Assembly (NCBI RefSeq): GCF_003314435.2
Contig: NZ_QNVY02000001.1
Location: forward strand, 992,001 to 1,056,000
Direction of reading: 5' to 3'
From: Flavobacterium petrolei
GTDB lineage: Bacteria; Bacteroidota; Bacteroidia; Flavobacteriales; Flavobacteriaceae
DNA length: 64,000 nt
The notes below the pieces were generated by a model. It was not told the DNA's origin. It did not search any database and saw only the letters and a list, made by a program, of their open reading frames with translations. The translations under genes and the position numbers were made by a program. Shown piece by piece: positions 24,247-53,945 of the stretch; position 1 is the stretch's first letter, and each line of letters begins with the position of its first letter.

Positions 24247-24291
24247 TGGTAAACGGAAGGGCTTATGTTATCTCAAAATAAAATTATTAAA

Positions 24292-25254
24292 ATGAAAAAA
24301 ATTATAGTATCATTTTTTCTCTTGACTGTAGCTTCGAGTTACAGTCAGGAGCTAAATTTGCCCGTTTTTACACAATACTTAGCGGACAATCCTTTTGTTA
24401 TTTCACCCACATTTGCCGGGATAGGAGATAACCTTAGAATCAGAGCTAACGGATTGACCCAATGGGTAGGTATCAAAGACGCTCCGAACAATCAGTCTGT
24501 CTACGCAGATTTTAGGATTGCAGATCAATCTGGAGTAGGTGTATCGCTCTACAATGATAAAAATGGGAATACCAGACAAACCGGTGCCAAGGCTTCATTT
24601 GCCCATCACATCATTCTGGATTATTATTCTAAACAATACTTATCTTTTGGTATTTCATACAATATCAATAATTTTAAGATTGATGTAAATGCACTCGATC
24701 CTATAGATTTCGATCCTGCAATTACTAATAACAGGTTTATTTCGAATAATAACTTTGATGTTGGACTACTCTACAGAAACAAAAGTTTTTATTTAAGTTT
24801 CAATGCCAGTAATATTTTAGATAAAGACATTGACAATTTTAGCGGTATAGAACCTAGTCTTTTGAGAAACTATCAGGTGTATTCCGGATATGTTTTTAGA
24901 AACAGCGGTAATAATAGAGCAGAGATTGAACCATCAGTTTACTATCAATTGTTTGCCAGTGACAGACGTTCCAGTACCGATATCAATATTAAGTACCGAA
25001 AATATAATCGTTATGATGATTACTACTGGGGTGGAATATCGTATCGATTTTTGAATGATCAAATAGGAAAGCCACTAAATGTAGGGCCAATGGTTGGTTT
25101 TAAGAAGTCTAATTTCTATTTTGGGTATTCCTATCAGGTGACTCTTAACGAGCTTTCGGCATACAATTCAGGAACACATGTGGTTACGATAGGATTGGAT
25201 TTTCTTCAGGGAATCAGTGACTGTCCTTGTACTCAAAGTCCGGTTCACGACTAA
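24292..25254 (+). CDS. sprF: SprF, PorP/SprF family T9SS outer membrane protein
   Basis: The 320-residue product has a signal peptide (MKKIIVSFFLLTVASSYSQ) and a beta-barrel body of the PorP/SprF family: LNLPVFTQYLADNPFVISPTFAG near the N-terminus, then alternating strands such as GVSLYNDKNGNTRQTG and FLSFNASNILDKDI-like segments. In F. johnsoniae SprF is needed to deliver SprB to the surface, so this is the matching partner of the adhesin just upstream (45 bases away). I chose the ATG at 24292 because it starts the signal peptide; an in-frame ATG at 24265 would add nine polar residues in front. A good terminator follows at 25277, closing the locus. Confidence 0.88.
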   Translation: MKKIIVSFFLLTVASSYSQELNLPVFTQYLADNPFVISPTFAGIGDNLRIRANGLTQWVGIKDAPNNQSVYADFRIADQSGVGVSLYNDKNGNTRQTGAKASFAHHIILDYYSKQYLSFGISYNINNFKIDVNALDPIDFDPAITNNRFISNNNFDVGLLYRNKSFYLSFNASNILDKDIDNFSGIEPSLLRNYQVYSGYVFRNSGNNRAEIEPSVYYQLFASDRRSSTDINIKYRKYNRYDDYYWGGISYRFLNDQIGKPLNVGPMVGFKKSNFYFGYSYQVTLNELSAYNSGTHVVTIGLDFLQGISDCPCTQSPVHD

Positions 25255-36997: not shown

Positions 36998-38188
36998 TTA
37001 ACTTGCTCTTTTGGAGCGTTCCCAATTAACCGATTGGGATTTTTTTATGTATCTGAAAAAGCCTAATACCACAGATAAATTCATTATAAAAAAGTAATAT
37101 GGTACAAACAGAATTTTTACGCTAGTCTCTCTATTCTCCAAAAACCAACCTAATAATGCTGCCGCATAAAATATAAGTTGTGACCAAAACAGTATTGAAA
37201 ATAAACCTAAAGATAAAAACCCTTCATTAGCTGCTAAAATTGTTAAAACTGGTATTAATAATATGAGACATAATGGTGTTATACTCCAACGTAAAACTCG
37301 ATGAGAAATATACTGAAATGAAAGCGTTCCATATTTAAAAAAATTTAATAATGAACGCAGTCTTACGATAGATTGAATGCCTCCAGCAGAGATTCTAATT
37401 TTTCGCTTAAACTCTTCTTTTACATTAGCTGAGGCTGTTTCTATAGCATAGGCTTCAGGATCATATTGAATGGTGTAGCCTTCTTGAGCGACTCGTAACG
37501 ATATAATAAAGTCGTCAAGTATAGTGTCTTTTTCAACAGGACGATATAATTCCGTTCTAATTGCAAAAAGTTCTCCAGCAGCTCCAACAACAGAATATAG
37601 TTCAGCATCCCATTTTTTTAGGGCCGATTCATATTTCCAATAGATTCCTTCGCCTGCCCCAGCAGCCACGTCACTTTCTTTATCAATAATTCGTTTTTCG
37701 CCAGAAACACATCCAACTTTATCGATACTAAATAGATTAACAATACGTCTTATAGATTGTTTTCCAAGGTATGTGTTCGCATCACTAAAAATTACAATTG
37801 GTGTTTTTACAAATGCCATACCTCTATTCATAGCACCAATTTTGCCATTTCTTTCCGGTACATGGTGTACTGTCGTATTAGGATACCCTTTTAGTAGGTC
37901 TGGTGTTCCATCATCTGAACCGTCTGTAACCCAGATAATATTTAATTTTTCTTTAGGATACTCCAGTTCGAAGGAGTTTTTCATTTTTGCGGCTACATAG
38001 TCCTTTTCATTATAGGCTGTGATAAATAACGTTACATCTGGTTCATAAGTTAGATCTATTTTTGTCTTAGTACCAATATTAAAAAACCGTTTTATTTTAA
38101 TGATTGTAAACAAAAGAATACCGTATCCTACATAGGTATAGATTATTATGAATAATAATATCCAAAATATAATTTTTAATGCAATCAT
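36998..38188 (-). CDS. Membrane glycosyltransferase, family 2
   Basis: The 396-residue protein has an N-terminal transmembrane helix, a GT-A catalytic domain and three C-terminal membrane helices. The GT2 landmarks are FITAYNEKDYVA at the start of the nucleotide fold, VTDGSDDGTPDLL, the metal-binding FSDANTYL, the ILDDFIISLR acceptor-site acid, and KRKIRISAGG in the place of the processive QxxRW region. It probably adds one sugar to the lipid-linked repeat unit, or extends a chain, at the inner membrane. It starts 21 bases after the preceding gene of the exopolysaccharide operon. Donor sugar unknown. Confidence 0.85.
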   Translation of the reverse strand: MIALKIIFWILLFIIIYTYVGYGILLFTIIKIKRFFNIGTKTKIDLTYEPDVTLFITAYNEKDYVAAKMKNSFELEYPKEKLNIIWVTDGSDDGTPDLLKGYPNTTVHHVPERNGKIGAMNRGMAFVKTPIVIFSDANTYLGKQSIRRIVNLFSIDKVGCVSGEKRIIDKESDVAAGAGEGIYWKYESALKKWDAELYSVVGAAGELFAIRTELYRPVEKDTILDDFIISLRVAQEGYTIQYDPEAYAIETASANVKEEFKRKIRISAGGIQSIVRLRSLLNFFKYGTLSFQYISHRVLRWSITPLCLILLIPVLTILAANEGFLSLGLFSILFWSQLIFYAAALLGWFLENRETSVKILFVPYYFFIMNLSVVLGFFRYIKKSQSVNWERSKRAS

Positions 38189-39421: not shown

Positions 39422-40582
39422 TTATTTTTTAGAATGTTCAGCATGAATTAATTCATATAGCTTGAGATACTCTTTTGCCATATTTCTCCAAGAAAATTGT
39501 TTACTTCTTTCTAAGCCTTTATCGCAAAGTGATTTTCTATACCCATCATTATTTAAAATTTCAATAAGGCCTTGGGTAATCTCTTCAGGATGTAATGGGT
39601 TTATAATGTGGGCTGCATCAGCTGCAATCTCAGGCATTGATGAGGTGTTTGATGTAATGACGGGAACATTACAAGACATCGCTTCCAGCATAGGAATTCC
39701 AAAACTTTCCCTTAGCGAAGGATATAAAAAAACATCGCATTGCGAATATATAGCGGGTAAATCGGTATTGGTGACGTATCCTGTTAATACGATATGACTA
39801 ATAAGAGCGGTGTCATCAATCTCAACTAATAATTTATTCAGTTCTATTTTATCATAATCAAGCATAACCAATTTGTGGTTGGATTTTGTTTGCTTTAAAA
39901 AGTCTGAAAATGCTTTTAACGTTCCTTTTGTATTTTTTTTAGGGTCTGTATTTCCAAGAAAAAAGAAATAATTATCGGGTAATTTATATTTTTCTTTGAT
40001 TCGTTTTAGCTCTTGAGTGTCCGTAACGGGCTTGAAATGTTCGCTTACACCATTGTAAATGGCGTCAAGTTTACCATCACCTTTGATTTTGAAGAATTCA
40101 CCAATACGGTTTTTCTCAAAATGAGATACTGTAATTACTTTTTCACTGTTTTTTACGACGCGTGGTACAACTAATTTTCTATATATATTTCCAAATTTTT
40201 GATACGTACTTGCACTACTTTTTAAAATGGTTAAATAGCTGCTTTCCATGTAAATGATATCATGTAAAATAGTTATTAATGGTGTTTTTAAAAAAAAAGG
40301 TGCTGTATTACTGGTACAATGCAAGATGTCACAACCATATTTTAGTGCGGCCTGTGGTAATGCTAATTGTTCCCAAATAGGATATGGGCTGCCTTTTAAT
40401 TCAATGATTTTAAAGTTAGCCGTTTCTTTAAGGGCTAATCGATCTTCATCTGGTTTTACAAAAATGTAATATTCATTTTCATGGTCTAAATCTTGGAGGT
40501 TCTTTATTAGCTCTAAAGCAACCATATCCATACCATGTTTCTTTTTTCGAAAAAGTCTTTGTCCTTCAATACCTATTTTCAT
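39422..40582 (-). CDS. Glycosyltransferase, family 4
   Basis: The 386-residue GT-B enzyme has the GT4 hallmarks: MKIGIEGQRLFRKKKHGMD at the N-terminus, VITVSHFEKNRI, the start of the donor domain YNGVSEHFKP, FLGNTDPKKNTKG in the phosphate-binding region, and the EX7E motif in ESFGIPMLEAMSC (about residues 305-317). Such enzymes usually transfer mannose, glucose or related sugars with retention. It belongs to the exopolysaccharide operon with gaps of six and four bases to its neighbours, suggesting coupled translation. Confidence 0.88.
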   Translation of the reverse strand: MKIGIEGQRLFRKKKHGMDMVALELIKNLQDLDHENEYYIFVKPDEDRLALKETANFKIIELKGSPYPIWEQLALPQAALKYGCDILHCTSNTAPFFLKTPLITILHDIIYMESSYLTILKSSASTYQKFGNIYRKLVVPRVVKNSEKVITVSHFEKNRIGEFFKIKGDGKLDAIYNGVSEHFKPVTDTQELKRIKEKYKLPDNYFFFLGNTDPKKNTKGTLKAFSDFLKQTKSNHKLVMLDYDKIELNKLLVEIDDTALISHIVLTGYVTNTDLPAIYSQCDVFLYPSLRESFGIPMLEAMSCNVPVITSNTSSMPEIAADAAHIINPLHPEEITQGLIEILNNDGYRKSLCDKGLERSKQFSWRNMAKEYLKLYELIHAEHSKK

Positions 40583-40586
40583 AATA

Positions 40587-41669
40587 TTATTTTTTTATCG
40601 GTTGATTTAAAAAATGACTCATAAGACTATTTTTAATTTTAGGATATATTATGACTTCTATTAGATATGAAAACGTAAACATCAAAATAATGTAGAGTAC
40701 ATATTCTAAGATCTTATTATTTAGAAAATTTAAATAAGTTGCTTCTATAACTAGGTAATGGTGAGATATATAGACAACATAGGAGAAGGGTGCTAAATAC
40801 TTAAATATTCCGAACACCGCATTAAAACCAAACCAATTGAAATTGTTCCAAATAATAGCACCAAGTATTGCCAAGAAGGCAAAAACAAAATTTCTTAATT
40901 CAATAAAAGGATAAGCCACCAAAGGGTAGTCGTACACCTTAGTATATCCAAAGTTTAGGTAGAAATTGATTCCTAAAAGCCCTATTATTGTTAGTAGAAG
41001 GTAAGTCTGCATTGCAATTGTTTTAAAGCTGTAAACACCTCTTTTTAGATAAATTTCTGCGAATTGGACACCTACCCACCAAATAGCAAAATACATTAGT
41101 ATCCTGTTCAAGAAAAAGGGGTAAATAAGATAGGATATGGTAGCTATAATAGTAATCATTGTAACCCAAGAATTAATTTTAGCGGGTGCTATTTTTTTAG
41201 CTAAAACGATAAAAGTCATGTAAAACCACCACTCATAGGACAAGGACCAAAGCACACCATTTCCCATATAAACCGCAGAAATAACATTTGGCTTTAGCGA
41301 AATGACATCTTGGAGCATAAAAATATTGCCTAAAAGAGTACTCCAATCTGGATCAGCCAAGCCACTTTCTTTATAACTTTTTATACCATAGGCCAATAAG
41401 AATATAAAAAAGAGTGGGATATAAATTCTTAAAAGACGTTTTAAAAAATAATTTTTAAATGATTTATCTGTTGATTTTTCCCATGAATACTTGATAACAA
41501 AACCACTTAAGATAAAAAACATAATGACTGCCTCTGAACCAAAGCGAAAAAGAAGTCCAATATTTAGACCTAAAAGAAATATTTTTTGAGGGAGCAGATG
41601 AAAAAGCACTACATAGAGTGCGCAAAAGCCACGAAGGGACTCTAATTTTTCTATCTCTTTATTTTTCAT
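40587..41669 (-). CDS. Acyltransferase 3 family membrane protein
   Basis: The 360-residue protein has about ten transmembrane helices and the family opening EKLESLRGFCALYVVLFHL with the conserved R and H that form the active site. Further signs are SGFVIKYSW and LWSLSYEWWFYM. Members O-acetylate or otherwise acylate sugars at the membrane, so it probably modifies the exopolysaccharide or its lipid-linked unit. It sits among glycosyltransferase genes of the operon. The acyl group and target sugar are unknown. Confidence 0.88.
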   Translation of the reverse strand: MKNKEIEKLESLRGFCALYVVLFHLLPQKIFLLGLNIGLLFRFGSEAVIMFFILSGFVIKYSWEKSTDKSFKNYFLKRLLRIYIPLFFIFLLAYGIKSYKESGLADPDWSTLLGNIFMLQDVISLKPNVISAVYMGNGVLWSLSYEWWFYMTFIVLAKKIAPAKINSWVTMITIIATISYLIYPFFLNRILMYFAIWWVGVQFAEIYLKRGVYSFKTIAMQTYLLLTIIGLLGINFYLNFGYTKVYDYPLVAYPFIELRNFVFAFLAILGAIIWNNFNWFGFNAVFGIFKYLAPFSYVVYISHHYLVIEATYLNFLNNKILEYVLYIILMFTFSYLIEVIIYPKIKNSLMSHFLNQPIKK

Positions 41670-41711: not shown

Positions 41712-42914
41712 TTATTTTGAATTTATCTCTTCTGAATTCGATGTATGTTGCGTATGAATGAATGTTTTATTGGCTCCTTTTATTTTAAGGAGAGACAATA
41801 ACATCATCAACATTCCTTTTGGTAAACGAGCTAAAGCATTCAATGTTTTTAAATTATAAAATGATTTTGGCACCGAAAATACAAAAGACAATACACAGGC
41901 TACAGCTAATAAGACCCAATAATTGGTTAGAGGTACCGGATTATCCAAAAAGTAATTCGTTAATATAAAACAGAAGCTACAAAGCATAACAGCACCTAAT
42001 AATAATATTCTGGGCGGTTGGATAAATTGGATAGCCTTGTCAAAATAATCGATATTGCCTTTAAGGATTAAATTTTTAAAGGCACTTACAATATCTTTCT
42101 TGAAATAATGCAATTGTGCAGAAAGCCATCTGCGGCGTTGGTTGCCAAACACCTCCGATTTTTGAATTTTTTCATCATAAACAAGAGCGTCATCGAGGTA
42201 AACGATCTTACGGCCTTCTTTTAGCATTTTTAATTCGATCTCTTTATCAAAGCCTCCAACTGCAGTTACAGTAGACATAAGTGTTTTGAAATAATTGTAT
42301 CTAAAAGCCATTCCAGAGCCAATTATTGCTGATGAAAGCCCTAATACTCTGTGTCCTTTTCTGAAAATATTATTATTTATTTCTTCGCTAATAGCATCGA
42401 GTACTGCCCAAGAGTTATTGGTGTTTTTTGCAGTTCTATGACCTTGAACCGCAATAATATCATATTCGAAAGCGGCATTAATTTTCTTTAAAAAATCAGT
42501 TTCCATCACATTATCTGCATCCAAAACTACAGCAATATCATACTCTCTCTCAAGAGTAGCCATGGCTTTATTTAAAGCTTTTGATTTGGTGCTTTTGTCA
42601 AAACTCACCTCAATTAATTGTATCGGCAGGGTTTTTAGGGTGTTTAACGTTTCTTGTTGGAAAGAATCGGCAATGATAACAACATCATATCGATCTGAAG
42701 GATAGTCTTGTTGTAAAGCTATATTTGCCACATCAAGAATTACTCCATCTTCTTTGTATCCAGGAATAAGCACAGCAATTTTTTTTATATTCCCATTATC
42801 AACATATTTTTTTTGTTTATAAAGTAAACTTGCTATTGAAAATACTAAAATATATAAAGTCGCTAAACCGAGAAGGGTTAATATAATAATTTGTATAATG
42901 TTTAATACTAGCAT
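41712..42914 (-). CDS. Membrane glycosyltransferase, family 2
   Basis: The 400-residue protein has an N-terminal membrane helix (about residues 5-28), a GT-A domain and two to three C-terminal helices. Landmarks are IAVLIPGYKEDGVILD, VVIIADSFQQETL, the metal site VVLDADNVMETDFL, and NQRRRWLSAQLHY, which matches the QxxRW acceptor/processivity motif. That motif is known from chain-building GT2 enzymes such as cellulose and hyaluronan synthases, so this enzyme may be processive or simply related. It belongs to the exopolysaccharide operon. Donor unknown. Confidence 0.87.
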   Translation of the reverse strand: MLVLNIIQIIILTLLGLATLYILVFSIASLLYKQKKYVDNGNIKKIAVLIPGYKEDGVILDVANIALQQDYPSDRYDVVIIADSFQQETLNTLKTLPIQLIEVSFDKSTKSKALNKAMATLEREYDIAVVLDADNVMETDFLKKINAAFEYDIIAVQGHRTAKNTNNSWAVLDAISEEINNNIFRKGHRVLGLSSAIIGSGMAFRYNYFKTLMSTVTAVGGFDKEIELKMLKEGRKIVYLDDALVYDEKIQKSEVFGNQRRRWLSAQLHYFKKDIVSAFKNLILKGNIDYFDKAIQFIQPPRILLLGAVMLCSFCFILTNYFLDNPVPLTNYWVLLAVACVLSFVFSVPKSFYNLKTLNALARLPKGMLMMLLSLLKIKGANKTFIHTQHTSNSEEINSK

Positions 42915-42961: not shown

Positions 42962-43900
42962 CTATCTTAAATTTCTTATTTTGTTTCTAATCTTTAACGC
43001 GTATTCTCTTAAAAAGGGTAGGTGTTTTCCACTTTTTAGATTGTACATAAAAGACTCTGATTCGAAAATCATTTCAAAATTAGCGGTACACAATACGGGT
43101 TTTTTTGATATTCTATTAATCTCAATGGCTTGAATTAATTCACTTTCTATAAACAAAACATAAGGTTTAGACAGATAGGCTTTCGCTTTATGATCGCCAT
43201 GATTATTGGCACGTTGTCTAGCCTCCATATTTGGTAAATCAAGCATTACCAAATCATTATATTTGATGTTGTTCGCTTCTAACCAAATTTCTGTTTCTTT
43301 CCTATATTTTTCTAAACGAGAGGTAACAATAGTTCCTATTTTACTTCCTGGAATAAATAGAGGTGGTGCATTTAATATGAAATCAGTGTACTTTTCTCCG
43401 TCATCATTTTGTTCTGGTAACGGGTCTGGGCACAGCACGCCATCTATATCAAAACAAGCTTTCTCCAAGGTGGTATGATTGAGTATATTCCACTGAAAAT
43501 ACCTTGGTAAGGGCACTATTTCAAAATAATAGTCTACCATTTTTTCCTTACCAGGAATCACATAGATTGCGCAATATTTTATATCAAATTTATCTTCCAG
43601 ATGCTTTAGCGTTTCTTTAACCTCTATCATGGCAGAACCAGAAGCGATGCTGTCATCGACTACCAACACTTTTTTATGTTCGCCAGAATCAAAAAACTGA
43701 CTTCTGGCTCCCGCTTTGTAGATGTGCCCATTCAAAAACGAATCGATATCAGTATAAGGCCTGTTGAGGTATAAGGATAATAAATTAGCAGGTAACATTC
43801 CGCTTCTTGGTACACCAACAATTAGATCAAAATCACGAGGAATTATACTTAATTTTTGAAGTATGATATCATTTAAATTTTTTATATTTCTGTAATTCAT
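42962..43900 (-). CDS. Phosphoribosyltransferase-HAD phosphatase fusion, candidate ribofuranosyltransferase
   Basis: The 312-residue protein joins two domains. Residues about 1-135 are a type I phosphoribosyltransferase with the pyrophosphate loop VGVPRSGMLPA (28-38) and the PRPP loop VLVVDDSIASGSAM (78-91). Residues about 145-285 are a HAD-type phosphatase with the catalytic DxD in FDIDGVLCPDP (D151, D153), a TSR motif II (193-195), lysines near 238-240, and a motif IV that reads FIESE rather than the usual acidic pair. In some bacterial polysaccharide pathways a two-domain enzyme places ribose-5-phosphate from PRPP on the glycan and then removes the phosphate. Its place among glycosyltransferase genes makes that role likely; a nucleotide-salvage role is the alternative. 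Confidence 0.75.
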   Translation of the reverse strand: MNYRNIKNLNDIILQKLSIIPRDFDLIVGVPRSGMLPANLLSLYLNRPYTDIDSFLNGHIYKAGARSQFFDSGEHKKVLVVDDSIASGSAMIEVKETLKHLEDKFDIKYCAIYVIPGKEKMVDYYFEIVPLPRYFQWNILNHTTLEKACFDIDGVLCPDPLPEQNDDGEKYTDFILNAPPLFIPGSKIGTIVTSRLEKYRKETEIWLEANNIKYNDLVMLDLPNMEARQRANNHGDHKAKAYLSKPYVLFIESELIQAIEINRISKKPVLCTANFEMIFESESFMYNLKSGKHLPFLREYALKIRNKIRNLR

Positions 43901-43947: not shown

Positions 43948-45429
43948 TTATGATTCGTTCAATAGGTTTTGATTTAACTCATTTTCCTTTTCAAGTACTT
44001 CAGTATTTAAAATTATAGCCATAGTTGCATAAATTAAAAGCGCAGTTGGCATTTGCCCCAAAACGGCATTTCCATAGGAGGCTACCATGATTCCGGCCAT
44101 TCCTGCTATTAGTGCTGATATTTTATATTTTAAAATGGGATCTTTTATCTTAAACATAACAATGAGACTCGCTTTGATCATTACATAAAAGAGGATTCCT
44201 AAATGAAGTAATAAGCCCACAATTCCTTCTTCTACCCAAATCAAAACGTACCAGCTATCAGTCGCGACATTAGAAAGGAAAGCATTCGGCAAATATTTTT
44301 GCGCTTTTGTACCTCCATGACCAATTCCTCCTCCAAATGGCCTTGATGATAAGTAGCTTTTAAGTATTTTTTGGTTATCAATCCGTACTTGTAAGGAGGC
44401 ATCATTAGGATCAAAAGCCGTTCGCATCCTTCGTACTTGCGCATTTCCTTGGGCGATGGTGGTGTATTTAAAGAAAACAAAAAGAAGCATTAAAAATGTT
44501 ACCCCTATGATAATCACCTTTATGTTTTTACTTAACACAAAATAGGTCATAAATCCAACTATAGGTACACTTAGAGCACCTCTAGTACCAGAGATAACCA
44601 TACCATAGATTCCTAAAAGTCCAACAAAAATGAAAAAGAACTTAGATAGTGATTTGCTTTGAGACATAGCATATATCAAAAACACAACACCACTATAGCC
44701 TTGATTAGCTCCAAATTGTCCTGCATCGCTATAAAATGAAAATACTCTTAATTTTCCAAAGAGTATATGTGTTTTGTAACTTCCTTCGTTTAGCCATTCT
44801 TGTTCTGCGAAATCAACGCCCATCGTCATTTGCATAATTCCTTTAAGCGTACCTAGGATGGAAAAAAAAGCCCAGACATATAAAAATGCTTCTAGCTTTT
44901 TGTTTGTGTCTATAAACAGCAGCGTTAGGGGAACAAAAAGTAAAGGGTAGAAAGCAATACCTCGCCCTGAAATCCATGCTTGTATGCTTCTGGCTTCTGG
45001 ATTAATGATTTCAAAAAGGGAATATCCAAACCATAGAATACAGAGGAATGTAATATCCTTTTTTGCAGGAGTCCAGTTTATCTTCTCCTTGAACTTATTC
45101 ATGAATAGTGCAATGTAGGTCAAAACAAGTATCCCGTCTATTCCAAACCCTAGCGGAAGCCCTTTTATATATCTTCCAATGCCTAATAGGAGAAAATTTA
45201 AAGCGATGGCAGTATAAAAACCAATTATTGGATAACAGAATAAATAATATAAAAATACAGATCCAATTAGTAGTGCAAGCACTAAAATAATCCCTAAGAT
45301 CCCAAGCTTGACTACGAGCAGTCCAACGATTGAAAGCAAAGCAAAAAGCAACAGTAAATACCCAGGTTTGGATAAATTCATTGATCCTGAATAGTTTTCA
45401 AAGGGATTTATGTTATTGTGCGCACTCAT
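43948..45429 (-). CDS. O-antigen polymerase/ligase-like membrane protein (Wzy-like)
   Basis: The 493-residue protein has about eleven to twelve hydrophobic segments and a large periplasmic loop region around residues 335-385. The signature MVISGTRGALSVPIVGF and the later PFGGGIGHGGTKAQKYLPN are typical of the Wzy_C/O-antigen ligase family. In a Wzx/Wzy pathway it would join lipid-linked repeat units into the long chain at the periplasmic face. It lies between the flippase gene (six bases away) and the phosphoribosyltransferase-HAD gene. It could instead be a ligase, but a co-polymerase and flippase next door favour polymerase. Confidence 0.82.
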   Translation of the reverse strand: MSAHNNINPFENYSGSMNLSKPGYLLLLFALLSIVGLLVVKLGILGIILVLALLIGSVFLYYLFCYPIIGFYTAIALNFLLLGIGRYIKGLPLGFGIDGILVLTYIALFMNKFKEKINWTPAKKDITFLCILWFGYSLFEIINPEARSIQAWISGRGIAFYPLLFVPLTLLFIDTNKKLEAFLYVWAFFSILGTLKGIMQMTMGVDFAEQEWLNEGSYKTHILFGKLRVFSFYSDAGQFGANQGYSGVVFLIYAMSQSKSLSKFFFIFVGLLGIYGMVISGTRGALSVPIVGFMTYFVLSKNIKVIIIGVTFLMLLFVFFKYTTIAQGNAQVRRMRTAFDPNDASLQVRIDNQKILKSYLSSRPFGGGIGHGGTKAQKYLPNAFLSNVATDSWYVLIWVEEGIVGLLLHLGILFYVMIKASLIVMFKIKDPILKYKISALIAGMAGIMVASYGNAVLGQMPTALLIYATMAIILNTEVLEKENELNQNLLNES

Positions 45430-45435
45430 TGCTTA

Positions 45436-46818
45436 TTAGTGTTTTTCTATTTTGACACAACTTTCGTATCGATTATGTGTCAGTTTATTAAATAGTGAGA
45501 TATAAAATACTACACCTTTGGTGAAAATTGCTTTGTATGATAAGGATAACTCCTTATCGAGAAAGTACATGCCCATCCAAATTCCAAGAATAGTGAAAAT
45601 GATGGAGGCTATGGCTACTAGAATTAAAGATTTAAATATAAATATAGCGACTAAATCTCCAATTACATTTGCCAGTACCATAACAAAAACTTTAATGGCA
45701 TTAATTTTAGGTTTATTAATACTGTCTAAACCAACGCCTGTCATCCTGTCTATAGGCAGTAATAATCCATAGATGGAAAAAACTCTAACAATAGCAACAA
45801 CATTAAACCCTGTTATTGGATCCGTTTTTAAATATTGGTGACCACTTATGACAATTACAAAGAATTCAGCAAATACAAATGTGACTAAACTTATCCCCAC
45901 AAAAAGATACGTTAAAGCCCCTGAATAGGTATAAAATAAGCTTTTTACTTCATCAATTTGATGGTGTAAACTAGCTTTTGACATCTTAGGAAAAGCCGTA
46001 GCAACAAAACTACGCAAAGGGATTTGTTGCAACTCAGTAAGCTTTAAAGGAATGCTGTAAAGAGCAACAGCGGCGCTACCCAAAGGACTTAAACTGATAA
46101 TTAGCGTATCTACACTTCGTAATAAATTGGTTCCTATAAGAGTAAAGGTGGTGTATTTGCCAAAATGCAATAAAGTTTTATTCGTTTCTATACTAGCTTT
46201 ATTAATAAGAAGTATACCATCCCAATCTAACATAAAACTTACTATGGATGTACCCGAATTTACGATAAGTAAGCCTATAACTAACTGGTTTAGGCTTAAA
46301 TTTAAAATCAAAAAATGGACTAATATTATTAAAAAGAAGCACCCGCTATTTACTGCTTTCAACGCTAAAATTTGCATATACTTTCTATCGGCTTGAAGTA
46401 CAACTAATGCAATATTCCAAGGAAGATTTAAAAAGGCTAGTAAAGGATACCAGGTGAAAAACATATTATATCCCGAATTTTGAATTGCCTCAGGAAATAA
46501 TAATTTACAAACGATCAATAGTACCGCTACTAAAAGGGTTGCGCCTAAGCTTATTAGAGCGTTAGAACCTATAAGTTTAACTCTCGATGCAGCATCAGCT
46601 CCAGAAAGATACCGAATTAAACCAGTATTAGTAATGCCAAATCGAAACATTTCAACAAACGATCCGGCGGCCATAAACAAAACCCACTCACCAAATACTT
46701 CCAATGATAAGCTTCTGGCAAGCAAAGCAAATCCACCAATGCCTAAAATAGCAATCACAACATTTCCTGATAATGAGAGGAAATTGTCTTCTTTCACTAT
46801 TTTTTTGAGTGTTTTCAT
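45436..46818 (-). CDS. Polysaccharide flippase (Wzx-like, MOP superfamily)
   Basis: The 460-residue protein has about twelve transmembrane helices and the Wzx/RfbX layout. It opens NFLSLSGNVVIAILGIGGF followed by LLARSLSLEVFGEW, the typical first helices of polysaccharide flippases, and LYSIPLKLTELQQIPLRSF midway. It should move the lipid-linked repeat unit across the inner membrane. It follows the co-polymerase gene by 11 bases and precedes the polymerase gene by six, which is the standard Wzx/Wzy group. Confidence 0.86.
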   Translation of the reverse strand: MKTLKKIVKEDNFLSLSGNVVIAILGIGGFALLARSLSLEVFGEWVLFMAAGSFVEMFRFGITNTGLIRYLSGADAASRVKLIGSNALISLGATLLVAVLLIVCKLLFPEAIQNSGYNMFFTWYPLLAFLNLPWNIALVVLQADRKYMQILALKAVNSGCFFLIILVHFLILNLSLNQLVIGLLIVNSGTSIVSFMLDWDGILLINKASIETNKTLLHFGKYTTFTLIGTNLLRSVDTLIISLSPLGSAAVALYSIPLKLTELQQIPLRSFVATAFPKMSKASLHHQIDEVKSLFYTYSGALTYLFVGISLVTFVFAEFFVIVISGHQYLKTDPITGFNVVAIVRVFSIYGLLLPIDRMTGVGLDSINKPKINAIKVFVMVLANVIGDLVAIFIFKSLILVAIASIIFTILGIWMGMYFLDKELSLSYKAIFTKGVVFYISLFNKLTHNRYESCVKIEKH

Positions 46819-46829
46819 TTATAGCTTGA

Positions 46830-49208
46830 TTAAATTTGGTTTTTAGAGAAAAATTGAAATTTGAACATCGATTTTAATTTTTTTCTAAACTGGCTTCGTT
46901 TCTTAGGTAGATCTCCTAAAACCGATTCAATTTCATTGATATTAACTCCGTTAACGATAACATTAATTTTTGATGCAGAAGTAGCTAATAAGTTATTCAT
47001 GGCTGATTGATCAGCATCTGACCATACTCTATTAGAACGACATACCAAAATACCTAAATCTGCATGTGTCATTAAATCTGCTGGATAATTATTATATATT
47101 ATAGCGGGCAACTCAATGATGGCAAAATCTGGAGTATAATTAAGTGAAATGTCGTTTTGTTTAAGTAGGTCTAAATAGGTTTTTGCTTCATAAAATTGAT
47201 TGTTTATTTTATAAGCAAAGTATTCTGAAGTATCGAGATAACTGGAAACTTCAGCTAAAAAAGGATTATTAGTATCTATTCGTGGATCAGCATACCCTAA
47301 AATTTTATTGATAAATGGATATTTTCTTTTCTGATTAATAGTCTCCTGTTTATTATCATAATTTAGCAATACTACTTTTTTACCTTCTTGCTTCAATGTT
47401 CTGGCAATATTGCCAGCTAAAACGGTCTTGCCTTCCATTTTTTGCGTACTAAAGACAACAATAGTTTTTACATTTTTATCAGAGGTATTTGTGCCAAAAT
47501 ATTGCAGTATATTTTGAGTAATTATCTCAATCAGTCTTTTTTGTATAAAAGCTAGGTTGATATTTCCTGCGTCTAATACCATTTTAGGGATCATTCCTAA
47601 TGATTTTAGTCCTATTTGCTTGCTTGCTCTACTCGCATTTTTTATTGTGTCATCAAAATACTCCATTAACAAAATGACACCTAAAGTTAAAATTCCACCT
47701 ACAAATGCCGCCGCAATAATTAGGATGCCTCTTTTAGTAGGATTGGGAGATAAGGGATAAAATGGCGGATCAATAGATTTTATGTTCGAAGACATCTCAT
47801 TGTCTTGCAATTTTAGTTTTGCTAAATTTAAGCCATGAAGCAATTCTAAATAGCCTTGCTCTGAAACTGAAATTTCACGTTCTAATCGTTTAATCGTGGC
47901 GCCTGCTGGAGCATAAGTAGCATATTGTTCTTGAAAATCTTTATTTTGTTTGTCCATTACCTTTATTTTGGCCTTAAGGTTTTCAGACTCAACAACACTA
48001 TTCATCCAGTCGGGAAGCACTTTAGTTAATGGAACGCCATCAACTGAATTTTGATAACTATAGATTTCATCAACACTTGTTTTAATCTCACTATTTAAAG
48101 ATTCTCTTTGTTTTTGTAAGGAATTGATTTTAGCTATTAGTGTTTCATTAACATTAGAATCTAGACTGGCCTCGTTAAATGCAATTTGATAATTAATTTC
48201 TCCTAATAATTTCTTTTTTTCAAGAATTTTGAACGTTTTATTTTGAATGTATTCTTGTACATTTAGTTTTTCTTCAATTCTTTTTGTAGATGCGTCTGTT
48301 CCGGCTAGTTGTGCTTGCTTATTTTTATAATCAACCTCCATATCTTCCTTTACTACTGCAACCGCCTTACTTTGTTCATAATAGTTGATTATATTATTGG
48401 ATTTGTTGAATTCAAGAAGCTTATCTTCAGCAATCTTTAAATTACTATTAGCTTGACGTAATTGTTCTTCAAAATATTTAACTACAGCATCAGATCTGTT
48501 TTCTTTTATATTTTTATAATTCTTAATACAGATTCCATTGTAAATTTCAAGCGTTTGTTGGCAAATACCCGGGTCATCAACGGTATAGCTGATTTTAACT
48601 AAATCGCTGCTATTGATACGAGCGGCTTGTATGCTTGATAATGCCTTTAGTGAATAGTGCTTGTCATCTTCATAATTGAGCAATTCATAAATATAATTAT
48701 CGTTGCTACTTTTCATTAAAGTTAATAACTGTTTGACTGTTTTCTCGTAGTTGTATCGGTTTATTTCAGGAGGTAGAGAATTATAGACAGCCACAGTATC
48801 AGTTTGCAAGCCTTTAGTATTGGATCCCTTTGCAATGTAGTTGTAAATGTCCTTCGGAACTTTTAATCTTAACTCATCAAACAATTTTTTTGAAATATAC
48901 TTTGGATTGGCTTCTGGTAACATGAGGTGGGTAGCCAATAAGCGTACCGCTACTTCTTCTTGAGTTTCTCTTGAATTAATAATATTGATTAAATTATCAA
49001 AAGCAATATTGGTGGCAAAATAATTGAATGTTTTATCCATTTCAATACTAGAACCTGTAGCGAGTCCTGTATATAACACTGTTTGAGATGAATATTCAAA
49101 ATTTGGTCTTATGGTAAGAACCAACACTAATATAGCTAGGAAGAAGGGTACAATAATTAAAATCGCCAAATGCCTTAATATCAATCTTATAAAATCAATT
49201 ATTTTCAT
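46830..49208 (-). CDS. Wzc-like polysaccharide co-polymerase with degenerate kinase domain
   Basis: The 792-residue inner-membrane protein has a first membrane helix (about residues 12-32), a large periplasmic domain with long coiled coil (about 240-480), a second membrane helix after PLSPNPTKRGI (about 495-520) and a C-terminal cytosolic domain of the BY-kinase type (about 575-770). Its Walker A region reads STQKMEGKT; the A-prime motif reads VVLLNYDNK where LLIDxDxR is usual, and Walker B reads FAIIELPAI where IIDTPP is usual. The C-terminal tail is basic and lacks a tyrosine cluster. I infer a chain-length regulator that has lost autokinase activity. It lies next to the TolC-like gene and the flippase gene. 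Confidence 0.85.
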   Translation of the reverse strand: MKIIDFIRLILRHLAILIIVPFFLAILVLVLTIRPNFEYSSQTVLYTGLATGSSIEMDKTFNYFATNIAFDNLINIINSRETQEEVAVRLLATHLMLPEANPKYISKKLFDELRLKVPKDIYNYIAKGSNTKGLQTDTVAVYNSLPPEINRYNYEKTVKQLLTLMKSSNDNYIYELLNYEDDKHYSLKALSSIQAARINSSDLVKISYTVDDPGICQQTLEIYNGICIKNYKNIKENRSDAVVKYFEEQLRQANSNLKIAEDKLLEFNKSNNIINYYEQSKAVAVVKEDMEVDYKNKQAQLAGTDASTKRIEEKLNVQEYIQNKTFKILEKKKLLGEINYQIAFNEASLDSNVNETLIAKINSLQKQRESLNSEIKTSVDEIYSYQNSVDGVPLTKVLPDWMNSVVESENLKAKIKVMDKQNKDFQEQYATYAPAGATIKRLEREISVSEQGYLELLHGLNLAKLKLQDNEMSSNIKSIDPPFYPLSPNPTKRGILIIAAAFVGGILTLGVILLMEYFDDTIKNASRASKQIGLKSLGMIPKMVLDAGNINLAFIQKRLIEIITQNILQYFGTNTSDKNVKTIVVFSTQKMEGKTVLAGNIARTLKQEGKKVVLLNYDNKQETINQKRKYPFINKILGYADPRIDTNNPFLAEVSSYLDTSEYFAYKINNQFYEAKTYLDLLKQNDISLNYTPDFAIIELPAIIYNNYPADLMTHADLGILVCRSNRVWSDADQSAMNNLLATSASKINVIVNGVNINEIESVLGDLPKKRSQFRKKLKSMFKFQFFSKNQI

Positions 49209-49974: not shown

Positions 49975-51177
49975 TTATACTGACCCTTTTTGAAGCAATG
50001 CTGGAATAGTACGTAAAATAAGTTTGATATCGTACCAAAACGAATAATTGTCTCCCTTAAAATGATCGGCATATTCATTGTCAAGTCGCATTCTTTCTTC
50101 TTCGGACATGTTTCCTCCCTTTCCTCGTAATTCAACCTGCCACAAACCAGTGATGCCAGGGGGTGCTAAAAATCTTTTTGATATTTCATCCCCGGTTATT
50201 AACTCTGCCTCATATACAGGTAGCGGTCTGTTGCCCACAATAGACATATCACCTTTTAAGACATTGATCAATTGTGGTAATTCATCGATACTGGTATTTC
50301 TAATGAATTTTCCAACTTTTGTAACGCGTGGGTCATCAACGATTTTAACAAAAGTTGAATTGCTTTTTGCCAATTCTTGCTTTTGAATATTAAACCAATA
50401 ATCGCAAATGACGTGGGTGTCAATATACATTAATGGGGAACATGATTCACCTTCTAGCAATGTACTACATTTTGGACATGGTTTTTCTAATGGATTATTT
50501 GTCGAAATTGTTTCTTCTTTTTTGTATTGGTTTTTTTCTTGCGCTAATTTTTTTAACAATTCGTCTGAACCGGTCCGCATTGATCTAAGTTTATAAAAAT
50601 CAAATGTTTTGCGACCGACTCTTTTTGAAATGTAATACACTTTTCCTTTTGATTCTAATCTTATAGCTAATATCACTACCAACAAAAATGGGGATGCAAA
50701 TAAAAGTACCGATGATGCAACAAAAATATCAAAAATACGTTTAGATAGAGGCATTTTGTACGCTTCTTCAGGGGCTTTTTGAGGTATACTAACCGTTGAA
50801 TTTTTTTTATTCATACAAAGAAATTCTACCCTGCTTAAAATATCTTGTGGTGGAGTTACTGAAGTTACATAAAAGTCATCAATTTGTTTTTTAAATGCTA
50901 ACTTGTAAAGATCAACATTGAATTCTTTTGACAAAAGAATAAAAGGGATATTGTCAAATTCCTTATTTTTCCGTATCCAATCAAAAAGAAACATTCCATT
51001 ATTTCCAGGTAAATTATAATCACAAATAATGGCATCAGGATACTTTCGAGTTTTGAGGTAATTAGCTACTTTTACACTACTTTCTACAGTAATTTTACAC
51101 CATTTATTGCTTTGCTCTGCAGCAGCAAAATATTCTGGAGTGGTTCCAATGTATGAAATAGTAAAAATTGAATTCAT
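49975..51177 (-). CDS. Initiating sugar transferase fused to a degenerate receiver domain
   Basis: The roughly 400-residue protein has two parts. Residues about 1-120 are a receiver-like domain: the phosphoacceptor position is kept (IICDYNLPGNNG, D53), but the N-terminal acidic pair and the conserved lysine are missing (SYIGTTPEY; VTSVTPP in place of TKPF). Residues about 140-400 are a bacterial sugar transferase (WbaP/WcaJ type) with the membrane segment FDIFVASSVLLFASPFLLVV, FYKLRSMRTG, and catalytic DELPQLINVLKGDMSIVG. An insertion at about 205-270 carries four cysteines (CPKC, then C245 and C257). It transfers the first sugar phosphate to the lipid carrier. It is 46 bases downstream of a free receiver gene. 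Confidence 0.87.
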   Translation of the reverse strand: MNSIFTISYIGTTPEYFAAAEQSNKWCKITVESSVKVANYLKTRKYPDAIICDYNLPGNNGMFLFDWIRKNKEFDNIPFILLSKEFNVDLYKLAFKKQIDDFYVTSVTPPQDILSRVEFLCMNKKNSTVSIPQKAPEEAYKMPLSKRIFDIFVASSVLLFASPFLLVVILAIRLESKGKVYYISKRVGRKTFDFYKLRSMRTGSDELLKKLAQEKNQYKKEETISTNNPLEKPCPKCSTLLEGESCSPLMYIDTHVICDYWFNIQKQELAKSNSTFVKIVDDPRVTKVGKFIRNTSIDELPQLINVLKGDMSIVGNRPLPVYEAELITGDEISKRFLAPPGITGLWQVELRGKGGNMSEEERMRLDNEYADHFKGDNYSFWYDIKLILRTIPALLQKGSV

Positions 51178-51223: not shown

Positions 51224-51610
51224 TTACCATTCTAAGGTATAGTGAATAGGATAGAGGTTTTTCTTGACTAGTTCATCTAATTCCTCCGGATTAAAAGGTT
51301 TTGTAAGATAGTCTTGAGCACCTAATTTATAACACTTAATTCGTTCCTTACTTTCTGATTTTCCTGAAAGCATGATGCATGGTGTGTGCTTTGTAAATCC
51401 ACGCTGGCGAAGTTTTATTAAGAATTCGTAGCCATCCATATTTGACATTTGAATATCGCTAATAATTAGATCGGGAATGTTGCTGTCAAGCCATAGGAGA
51501 GCTTCTAATCCATCGTTCATTGCCACTACTTCATAACTCTTAGAAAGGAAGTTTTCTAACAAAAGGCAAATACTTACTTCATCATCTAAAACTAATATTT
51601 TTTTCTTCAT
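51224..51610 (-). CDS. Single-domain response regulator (CheY-like)
   Basis: The 128-residue protein is a lone receiver domain with every catalytic residue in place: acidic pair D9-D10 (VLDDE), phosphoacceptor D52 (IISDIQMSNMDG), S82 (IMLSGKS) and K104 (YLTKPF). There is no output domain, so it must signal by protein contact. I chose the ATG at 51610, which gives the standard MKKKILVLDD start; an ATG at 51628 would add six residues. It lies between the UXS gene and the receiver-sugar transferase fusion gene, so it may act on the export or initiation step. An Hpt gene lies just upstream of the operon. Confidence 0.92.
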   Translation of the reverse strand: MKKKILVLDDEVSICLLLENFLSKSYEVVAMNDGLEALLWLDSNIPDLIISDIQMSNMDGYEFLIKLRQRGFTKHTPCIMLSGKSESKERIKCYKLGAQDYLTKPFNPEELDELVKKNLYPIHYTLEW

Positions 51611-51657
51611 AATTTCTTTCTTCAGCATTAAAAATTATTACTTGCTTTCTCTTTAAA

Positions 51658-52596
51658 TTAAATGGTTGATTTGAAAAAGGCTATAGTTTTTATTAGACCT
51701 TCATCAAGATTTACCTTTGGAGACCAGTCCAGTTCTTTTTTTGCTAAAGAAATATCGGGTTGCCTTTGCATAGGATCGTCTGATGGAAGGGGTTGATAAA
51801 TAATTTTTGATGTGGATCCTGTTAATCCTATTATTTTTTGAGCTAGTTCAAGAATCGTAAATTCATTTGGATTTCCAACATTTACAGGTCCAGTAAAACT
51901 ATCTTTTGAATTCATAAGCCTTATCATTCCTTCAATTAAGTCATCAACATACTGAAAGCTTCTTGTTTGATTACCTTGTCCGTAAATAGTTATATCTTGA
52001 TTTTGTAAAGCTTGAACAATAAAATTCGAAACTACGCGCCCATCGTTAGGATGCATTTTTGGTCCGTAAGTATTGAATATTCTTATGATTTTTATTTTAA
52101 CGTTGTTCTGTTTATGGTAATTTATAAATAAGGTCTCTGCTGAACGTTTTCCTTCATCATAACAAGCTCGTTCTCCTATTGGATTAACGTGCCCCCAATA
52201 GGATTCTGGCTGCGGATGAACGAGTGGGTCTCCATAAACCTCGCTGGTAGATGCCTGTAATATTTTAGCATTTACACGTTTCGCAAGCCCTAACATATTA
52301 ATGGCTCCCATTACAGAAGTCTTCATTGTTTTAATGGCGTTATACTGATAATGTATGGGAGAAGCAGGACAGGCTAAATTGTAAATTTCATCAGTTTCAA
52401 TAAAGAAAGGCGTAGTGACATCATGACGGATGAGTTCAAAATAAGGATTCTCTAGCAGGTGTATTACGTTTTCTTTTTGTCCAGTAAAAAAATTATCTAA
52501 ACAATACACCTCATTACCTTCATTTAATAAACGCTCACATAAATGAGAACCGACAAAACCAGCACCTCCAGTTACAAGTATTTTTTTACGAGACAT
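51658..52596 (-). CDS. UDP-glucuronate decarboxylase (UDP-xylose synthase)
   Basis: The 312-residue short-chain dehydrogenase makes UDP-xylose from UDP-glucuronate, using NAD. It shows the Rossmann motif [11 protein letters not shown] (about residues 8-18), [11 protein letters not shown], the catalytic site [11 protein letters not shown] with Y and K (about 147-157), and [20 protein letters not shown]. These features match UXS proteins rather than simple GalE-type epimerases. It follows ugd by two bases, so the pair gives a direct UDP-glucose to UDP-glucuronate to UDP-xylose route for the polysaccharide. Confidence 0.9.
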
Positions 52597-52598
52597 AG

Positions 52599-53945
52599 TT
52601 AAGATTTTAATTTTACACTTTCTCTTAATGTATCTATACCAATACAGAAATAATCAAAACCACTTTCTTTCATTTCTTCTCTATCATAAATATTACGGCC
52701 ATCAAAAATTGCAGGCGTACTAAGTAATTTTTGAACAATTTTTAAATTGGGAAATTTAAATTCGGGCCATTCTGTAAGTATCGCTAAACAGTCTGCATCA
52801 ATAAGTGTTTCGTATTGATCTTCACAATATGAAATAGTGTCCCCAAAGTGATGTTTAGCTTCGTTAATGGCAACTGGGTCGTACGCTTTGACTATTGCGC
52901 CAGCTTCTAATAGATTTTTTACTATGTATAAGGAAGGAGCTTCACGCATATCATCTGTTTGTGGTTTAAAAGAAAGACCCCAAAGTGCAATAGTTTTTCC
53001 TTTGACATCTGCTTTAAAATATTTCATAATTTTATTAAAAAGCACTAATTTTTGGTCATTATTAACAGCTTCCACCGCCTTGAGTACGCGTAATTCATAA
53101 TTGTGTTCACTTGCTGTTTTAATTAATGCCTGAACATCTTTTGGAAAACAAGAACCACCATAGCCAATACCTGGATATATAAATTTATGTCCAATGCGCG
53201 AGTCTGAACCAATGCCTTTTCTTACTTTATTTATGTCTGCTCCTACAATTTCACAAAGATTTGCTATGTCATTTATAAAACTAATTTTTGCAGCAAGCAT
53301 GGCGTTTGCTGCGTACTTTGTCATTTCTGCGGAAATAATATCCATAAAAATTACTGGATGACCATTAAGTGTAAAGGGCTTGTATAAACTCTTCATCAAA
53401 TCTTCTGCACGTTCACTTTCCAATCCTACTACAATTCTATCCGGTTTAAGAAAGTCATCAATAGCAGCTCCTTCTTTTAAAAATTCAGGATTAGAGGCTA
53501 CGTCAAATGGTATTTTTACATTTCTTTTATCCAGCTCTTCTTGCAATGCCTGTTTTACTTTTTGAGAGGTACCTACAGGAACCGTGCTTTTTGTAACTAC
53601 TAATAAGTAATCATTTATGTACTTTCCACAATTTCTAGCAACTGCAAGAACATATTTTAAGTCCGCACTACCATCTTCATCTGGTGGAGTCCCTACGGAA
53701 ATAAATAAAACTTCAGCTTCTTTTAAGGCTGCTTCAATATTAGTTGTAAAACTTAATCTTCCCTTTTTCATGTTTCGGGTGATCATGTCTTCTAATCCTG
53801 GTTCATAAATAGGTATAATACCTTTATTTAAGTTATCTATTTTATTACTATCTATGTCTACACACGTAACATCAATACCCACCTCGGAAAAGCATGCTCC
53901 AGTTACAAGTCCTACGTATCCGCTACCAACAATTACAATTTTCAT
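52599..53945 (-). CDS. ugd: UDP-glucose 6-dehydrogenase
   Basis: The 448-residue enzyme oxidises UDP-glucose to UDP-glucuronate with two NAD. It has the N-terminal Rossmann motif [10 protein letters not shown] (about residues 7-16), [27 protein letters not shown], and the catalytic cysteine in [14 protein letters not shown] (about 263-276). The C-terminal domain with [17 protein letters not shown] is typical. It is the first gene of the 15-gene exopolysaccharide operon. The 634-base region before it should hold the operon promoter; the best -7 candidate is at 54081-54088. Confidence 0.95.

Follow-up and report, generated by a model that had tools for sequence, protein, structure and literature searches.

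What is a protein that joins a phosphoribosyltransferase (PRT) to a HAD phosphatase doing in a cluster of polysaccharide genes? The question is raised by a gene at 42962..43900 (-) in a 64,000-nucleotide stretch of Flavobacterium petrolei DNA, here called the window, which encodes a protein of 312 aa that we refer to as PRT-HAD and that belongs to a family named by Pfam only as phosphoribosyltransferase. The first-pass annotation had suggested that this protein might transfer ribose-5-phosphate from PRPP, remove the phosphate and in this way put ribofuranose into the polysaccharide. Judging from its sequence and that of its relatives, we consider it very probable that PRT-HAD is a soluble two-domain PRPP-dependent ribofuranosyltransferase for polysaccharide.

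A two-domain protein in an exopolysaccharide cluster

The open reading frame, with an ATG start, runs exactly from 42962 to 43900 on the (-) strand, and the presence in one protein of a PRPP-binding PRT and a HAD domain with the motif DIDGV, as the first-pass annotation had read it, is confirmed by Pfam and by AlphaFold models. The type I PRT domain (residues 1-142; 43475..43900, -) was defined by Pfam together with profile and fold comparisons, and the HAD phosphatase domain (residues 143-280; 43061..43474, -) by a model of the HAD part and its fold comparison. PF00156 matches residues 7-129 with an E-value of 6.7e-10, above the cut-off, and is the sole Pfam match of the protein, the HAD half having no match to a Pfam family at E up to 1; against NCBIfam and PHROGs, PRT-HAD gave weak, partial or sub-threshold matches only. 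The AlphaFold model of the whole protein, computed from an alignment of 39 sequences (A1), has a mean pLDDT of 86.6, and the HAD part modelled alone has a pLDDT of 94.6 and a HAD fold.

In profile and fold comparisons with the PDB, the closest solved structures to the PRT half are purine PRTs [best profile match GpT-2, E 1.3e-10; best fold match H. pylori XGHPRT, Z 15.6, rmsd 3.8, 134 aligned], and both the PRPP motif and the fold place this half among the type I PRTs. The earlier view that the transferase has the classic type I fold and not the divergent one gains support from these nearest structures, and from an acidic pair that is vicinal where that of CriT is split. The HAD half is closest in fold to the T4 and bacterial Pnkp phosphatases (Z about 13), with the T4 Pnkp 3'-phosphatase at Z 13.1, rmsd 2.6 and 118 aligned residues; Foldseek itself returned no match for the HAD model at E 0.001 or better, and the HAD sequence profile matched Pnkp1 weakly (E 0.012). 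HAD phosphatases are marked by a D-x-D motif, a Thr or Ser, a Lys and an acidic motif IV, all of which are found among the residues of PRT-HAD. In the HAD model (138 aa) a single 9-residue helix lies between motif I and motif II, with no other insertion of the size of a cap; the HAD part is, as predicted by this model, small and without an alpha-helical cap.

The PRT-HAD gene is part of an exopolysaccharide cluster, in which wzy and a GT2 gene flank it. On one side lie the adjoining GT2-family glycosyltransferase (41712..42914, -; PF13641, 1.8e-24), an acyltransferase (40587..41669, -; PF01757), two GT4-type glycosyltransferases (39422..40582, -, PF00534; 38210..39415, -, PF13692) and a GT2-type glycosyltransferase (36998..38188, -; PF00535). 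On the other side are a Wzy-like polymerase/ligase (43948..45429, -; PF04932), a Wzx-like flippase (45436..46818, -; PF01943), a Wzc-like chain-length regulator (46830..49208, -; GNVR and CbiA matches, both below cut-offs), a response regulator fused to an initiating sugar-phosphate transferase (49975..51177, -; PF02397, 1.8e-52, and PF00072), an NAD-dependent epimerase/dehydratase (51658..52596, -; PF16363, PF01370) and an enzyme of the UDP-glucose dehydrogenase type (52599..53945, -; PF03721, PF00984, PF03720). The statement that the gene sits among glycosyltransferases therefore holds, its neighbours being glycosyltransferases, Wzy, Wzx and an acyltransferase.

Two further features of the window deserve mention. 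The fused initiating transferase, whose response regulator domain is N-terminal, is preceded by a further response regulator gene (51224-51628), and it is possible that a phospho-signal controls the start of exopolysaccharide synthesis via 49975-51177 and 51224-51628. A giant protein of 4827 aa (9763-24246), in which SprB repeats and a type IX secretion signal (CHU_C) are recognised, is flanked by PorP/SprF proteins at 6156-9473 and 24265-25254; together they form an adhesin set of the gliding type, not far from the exopolysaccharide genes. No Flavobacterium gliding polysaccharide cluster was found in the literature searched.

Relatives, conserved residues and gene neighbourhoods

PRT-HAD is no chance reading frame: a scan of genome_contigs found 55 loci that encode relatives, 41-96% identical to it, with the match covering 274 or more of the 312 residues in every case. 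These loci are mostly from Bacteroidota, and also from Bacillota, Pseudomonadota, a Fibrobacter-like source and more, while the plasmid collection holds 41 records with relatives from seven genera, Rhizobium foremost. The distribution is patchy: of the 199 genomes from the window's family, 8 (the window's own included) have a full-length copy, as do 10 of 395 genomes in the phylum sample and 6 of 369 in the class to which the Shewanella genome belongs. The other matches in those 199 genomes are short, and most of them fall on a HAD protein in its own right, about 150 aa long, which is widespread in the window's family (e.g. G178:C2:15846-16067) and roughly 32-39% identical to PRT-HAD from about residue 148 to 220-234. 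A phage or defence gene was also considered and rejected, with no relative among 50,697 phage records, none confirmed in viral_contigs by a pattern-based scan, and no PADLOC match for the two PRT-HAD proteins tested.

Residue conservation was counted over 77 family sequences, a set that contains duplicates (L056 is the window gene, and L116 is the Shewanella gene again) and copies with an altered PRPP site; two plasmid loci, L064 and L065, for which no family ORF was picked, were left out of these counts and of the counts of glycosyltransferase (GT) neighbours. The motif G-V-P-R-S-G (residues 29-34; 43799..43816, -) resembles a pyrophosphate loop, the role that we take it to have; G29, P31, R32, S33 and G34 are invariant in A1 (39/39), and R32 is found in 75 of the 77. 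The PRPP motif VLVVDDSIASGSAM (residues 78-91; 43628..43669, -) has D83 in 77/77 and G88 in 75/77; residue 82 is Asp in 69 sequences, Glu in six, and Gly and Asn in one each, the vicinal Asp/Glu82-Asp83 pair being present in 75/77. At the end of the PRT domain stands a family signature, P-R-x-F-[QE]-W-N-x-x-x-H (residues 132-142; 43475..43507, -), with R133 in 75/77, W137 in 77/77 and N138 in 76/77. HAD motif I, DIDGV (residues 151-155; 43436..43450, -), keeps both D151 and D153 throughout. The other family signature, D-P-x-x-x-x-N-D-D-G-x-K-Y (residues 159-171; 43388..43426, -), has D159, P160, N165, D166, D167, G168 and K170 invariant in A1 (39/39) and is lost in locus L115, and E252-S253 (43142..43147, -) resembles HAD motif IV. 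In all, D83, W137, D151, D153, T193, K238 and E252 are kept by 77/77 family sequences and R195 by 76/77.

Two positions are set against the purine PRTs. In the PRPP loop, 5/5 aligned purine PRTs have an Asp just ahead of the TG/SG, whereas Asp or Glu is found at residue 86 in 0/77 of the family, and the Lys of the strand after the PRPP loop, likewise 5/5 in the purine PRTs, is found at residue 115 in 1/77. Both the loop Asp and the following-strand Lys have roles in 6-oxopurine PRTs, and on these two residues PRT-HAD stands apart from the XGPRT/GpT enzymes. Since the PRPP-site and HAD residues are near-universal and residues 86 and 115 are changed, the PRPP and phosphatase machinery appears to be kept as a rule and purine specificity does not. 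This conservation lends support to the two-step PRPP chemistry proposed in the first-pass annotation.

In the neighbourhood counts, GT labels came from HMMs built from the loci, and Pfam counts were made separately. Among loci L001-L041, many of which are close relatives, a GT is a direct neighbour in 37/41 and lies within three genes in 40/41, and the order Wzc-Wzx-Wzy-PRT-HAD-GT2 is repeated across much of the set; the 79 direct neighbours of these loci include, by Pfam, 30 of GT2 type, 23 with Wzy_C, 14 of GT4 type and 8 pyruvyl transferase matches. In the distant group a GT lies within three genes or is fused in 7 of 14 loci, and the seven loci without a labelled GT within three genes include several on short contigs. 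In the plasmid regions the same is true of 8/8 copies found (7 of 9 regions). The neighbours in the distant and plasmid groups, 63 taken from 75 with some near-duplicate plasmid neighbours left out, include 11 with PF00535 and four with PF00534. In seven gammaproteobacterial regions a GT was found near L110, L111 and L115, and no labelled GT near L112, L113, L114 and L116 (Shewanella). The Shewanella copy (L055 / L116) stands by itself, with no glycan genes recognised nearby. The loci of the distant and gammaproteobacterial sets that lack a labelled GT, the Shewanella copy among them, speak against a glycan role.

Fusions occur in several relatives. L042 and L051 are natural GT2-PRT-HAD fusions, and two relatives, L044 (FkbM) and L050, carry a C-terminal methyltransferase. 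The methyltransferase fused in L050 (9665-11449) and that encoded beside PRT-HAD in L043 (9382-9996) are alike by eye, and they may point to methylated ribose. In the Rhizobium plasmids (L062, L063, L067, L068) PRT-HAD is longer, at 429-439 aa, and its surroundings include a glycosyltransferase gene but also a type VI secretion locus (VgrG annotated in L063, L067 and L068), which counts against the polysaccharide reading; a peptidase, of the caspase family in L063 and L068, precedes the longer PRT-HAD in L062, L063 and L068. IspD and YgbB (IspF) matches appear twice among the distant-group neighbours (L046, L052); gene size suggests that these are most likely the pair of genes that follow PRT-HAD in two Selenomonadales loci, and they may be there through chance adjacency.

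In some genomes the family is present as pairs. Genome G359 has two PRT-HAD copies, L114 and L115, on two contigs. L114 has changes in its PRT half (R32 to Pro, D82 to Asn, G88 to Thr, R133 to Pro) next to an intact HAD signature. L115 shows the reverse: its PRPP motif is intact, but past motif I and around motif II the HAD signature is gone, with D151, D153, T193, K238 and E252 still there. Rhodobacter sp. CZR27 (L066) has two copies as well (12001-12951 and 14605-15579), one of which has D82 changed to Gly, R32 to Gly, R133 to Cys and N138 to Ser, with an intact HAD signature. Complementary decay as in G359 is what one would predict for two activities that are both required but may come from separate proteins, and the sequences of the paired copies suggest one copy per reaction step.

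The E. coli clusters and the proposed reaction

When the Shewanella gene was used in a distant DNA search of 5426 E. coli genomes, 11 of them matched, with 22% of the query covered; the E. coli gene itself matched 13 of 5426, of which 11 are O105 and two O183. The full O105 block is found in 11 genomes, three regions of which were read, as were both O183 genomes. In O105, wzy and four proteins with GT-type Pfam matches are followed by PRT-HAD and then by wzx on the other strand; PRT-HAD is annotated as 'hypothetical protein' in 8 of the 11 O105 records. Both E. coli proteins share about 39-40% identity with the window PRT-HAD. E. coli O105 and O183 correspond to Shigella boydii types 11 and 10, for which structures have reportedly been published.

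The O183 block GT2-GT4-wzy-GT4-GT-manC-manB recurs with about 97% identity (88% of the query) in 11 further genomes, none of which is among the 13 with PRT-HAD. Two of these 11 were read: the O169:H41 record has wzx and a 392-aa GT4 enzyme (Pfam) where O183 has PRT-HAD and wzx, and the second genome has the same layout with several genes broken. PRT-HAD in O183 occupies the place of a sugar transferase in the other serotype; the flippase gene wzx also differs between the two, and the swap is thus not of a single gene. The glycan role foreseen in the first-pass annotation is strengthened by the O105 and O183 clusters and by the glycosyltransferase that takes its place in O169, in addition to the polysaccharide setting and the GT2 fusions. 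O169 and O183 are 97% identical over 64% and show no serological cross-reaction, according to the available text of PMC4732683. The corresponding text of PMC10072801 does not mention O105. Ribf is described in several E. coli K capsules, where it is made by dual-domain enzymes (PMC13171606, available in part), and Kelly 2024 states, in the portion available, that all beta-Ribf residues identified there are accounted for by already identified enzymes (PMC11127046). Either, then, the PRT-HAD family is among those enzymes, or O105 and O183 were outside the coverage of Kelly 2024, or O105 and O183 are without beta-Ribf; the statement would be at odds with beta-Ribf in O105 and O183 if the family is missing from those enzymes.

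In the reaction that we propose, the type I PRT domain would bind PRPP-Mg and, in the cytoplasm, move ribofuranose-5-phosphate to a hydroxyl group on the polyprenyl-linked repeat unit as this grows; PPi would be lost, and the linkage would probably be beta, through inversion. The HAD domain would then take off the 5-phosphate, which would free the repeat unit for extension and for the later steps of flipping by Wzx and polymerisation by Wzy.

The same two domains might instead make a lipid-linked donor, with the PRT putting ribose-5-phosphate on undecaprenyl phosphate and the HAD removing the phosphate for an extracytoplasmic addition, in a PPPRS-like manner. A known three-component pathway does use PRPP and a HAD phosphatase, as the available text of PMC11127046 describes it. 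However, the membrane prenyltransferase domain of the UbiA-type polyprenyl phosphoribose synthases is absent from PRT-HAD (PF00156 is its sole Pfam match at E up to 1), the O183 cluster has only wzx annotated as a flippase and no further MATE or GT-C gene annotated, and an ordinary GT4 enzyme stands at the PRT-HAD position in O169; hence we regard a donor of this kind as improbable. Slightly less probable still is a transfer of ribose-5-phosphate to a sugar in which the final residue is altered, the ribose being methylated or epimerised, or the phosphate being kept in some species. The methyltransferase fusions of L044 and L050 and the methyltransferase gene of L043 would fit such an alteration, as would the loss of the HAD signature in L115, where five HAD residues are still there, but the retention of D151, D153, T193, K238 and E252 in 77/77 sequences favours dephosphorylation as the rule.

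Nucleobase salvage, in which the PRT would make a nucleotide and the HAD convert it to a nucleoside, has the purine PRTs as closest solved structures in its favour, and W137, close to where the PRT domain ends, lines up with a Trp that some purine PRTs have, which leaves room for a flat ligand. The absence of the purine-PRT loop Asp, the near-absence of the strand Lys and the patchy distribution led us to reject salvage as the main reading, and the polysaccharide setting and the nine other PF00156 matches in the F. petrolei genome, which has one copy of PRT-HAD, weigh against it too; we hold it to be the least probable of these alternatives.

Comparison with known PRPP-dependent enzymes

The ribofuranosyltransferase reaction that we favour for PRT-HAD has counterparts among known enzymes, in which, as far as the available texts describe them, PRPP-dependent ribofuranosylation is brought about by joining a gPRT and a HAD phosphatase (PMC11231755, PMC10299916, PMC12096443, PMC11127046). 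The gPRT-PRP proteins of Klebsiella (O4 ORF5 and O7 ORF7) combine, like PRT-HAD, a PRPP-dependent transferase and a HAD in one polypeptide from a polysaccharide locus (PMC11231755, PMC11127046, both in part), and by analogy their two-step reaction would be the same as that of PRT-HAD. In PRT-HAD, by contrast, the PRT comes first (PRT 1-142, HAD 143-280), is about 142 aa long and is of the classic type I, whereas the HAD precedes the PRPP transferase in Bcs3 and Cj1432 as described. In place of a split acidic pair and helical bundles around the core, PRT-HAD has a vicinal pair (75/77) and a compact model, and its small HAD lacks, in the predicted model, the alpha-helical cap that is described for the known PRPs (PMC11127046, available text).

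In Bcs3 of Haemophilus influenzae b (CriT/CrpP), the PRPP-using transferase and its HAD partner are joined to a further glycan transferase, an arrangement that L042 and L051 share. The CriT part of Bcs3 spans about residues 592-1036 and has three helical bundles, with D680 and E818 on different loops (PMC10299916, available text), whereas PRT-HAD has the vicinal D82-D83 and a reversed domain order. Campylobacter jejuni Cj1432, a capsule enzyme in which a GT, a HAD and a PRPP transferase are fused (GT4-HAD-PRT), also recalls L042 and L051; order and PRPP-transferase fold differ from those of PRT-HAD, Cj1432C (residues 574-914) being CriT-like in the text available (PMC12096443). In our profile and fold comparisons with the PDB, the solved gPRT-PRP members, Bcs3 and T. 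composti, are not named among the matches listed, although PRT-HAD may still be related to them. A Bcs3-like protein was sought via PF04464 in the 369 genomes of the class of the Shewanella genome, and neither of the two long frames read is a CriT; both have a TagF-type domain followed, by eye, by a GT4 domain, and Bcs3 is not among the PDB matches of one of them at E up to 0.01.

With the type I purine PRTs (GpT-2, XGPRT), PRT-HAD has the fold and the PRPP-binding motif in common, and it differs from them in the missing loop Asp, the nearly absent strand Lys, the fused HAD and the glycan setting. In ribostamycin/butirosin biosynthesis, BtrL and BtrP bring about a PRPP-dependent O-ribosylation that is followed by a phosphatase step. 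This resembles the two-step scheme proposed for PRT-HAD, with the difference that the acceptor is a small-molecule aminoglycoside and that the proteins are separate. The abstract of Kelly et al. 2022 reportedly speaks of the divergent gPRT fold as that of 'the most abundant' family, a wording from which it follows that other families may already be in that survey. No description of the PRT-HAD family was found in the literature searched (titles and abstract openings), from which no claim of priority is implied.

Set apart by published descriptions, as far as these are available, PRT-HAD is expected to work like the gPRT-PRP enzymes but probably does not belong to that family, from which it differs in domain order, in compactness, in where its acidic pair lies and in having, in the model, no cap. 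We lean towards the view that it represents a glycosyltransferase family of its own. On this view a type I PRT fold of the purine kind, hardly changed, was recruited for O-glycosylation without any part played by the divergent gPRT fold, and its partner is an unrelated HAD, capless and similar to Pnkp. PRPP-dependent ribofuranosylation would then have arisen by convergence and have spread through the surface-sugar clusters of Bacteroidota, Bacillota and Pseudomonadota (E. coli O105 and O183 included), with one genome in which a transferase copy and a phosphatase copy have apparently become separate. If PRT-HAD is indeed a ribofuranosyltransferase, then a second, compact enzyme family adds ribose to bacterial surface glycans, a transferase can be assigned in the O-antigen clusters of E. 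coli O105 and O183, and Bacteroidota exopolysaccharides gain a marker for ribose, with a small soluble enzyme for making ribofuranosides. A comparison with gPRT would then tell how a fold from nucleotide salvage has been fitted to acceptors that are sugars. Seen beside the known systems, PRT-HAD is most likely a different version of their two-step reaction, attaching ribose to surface polysaccharides.
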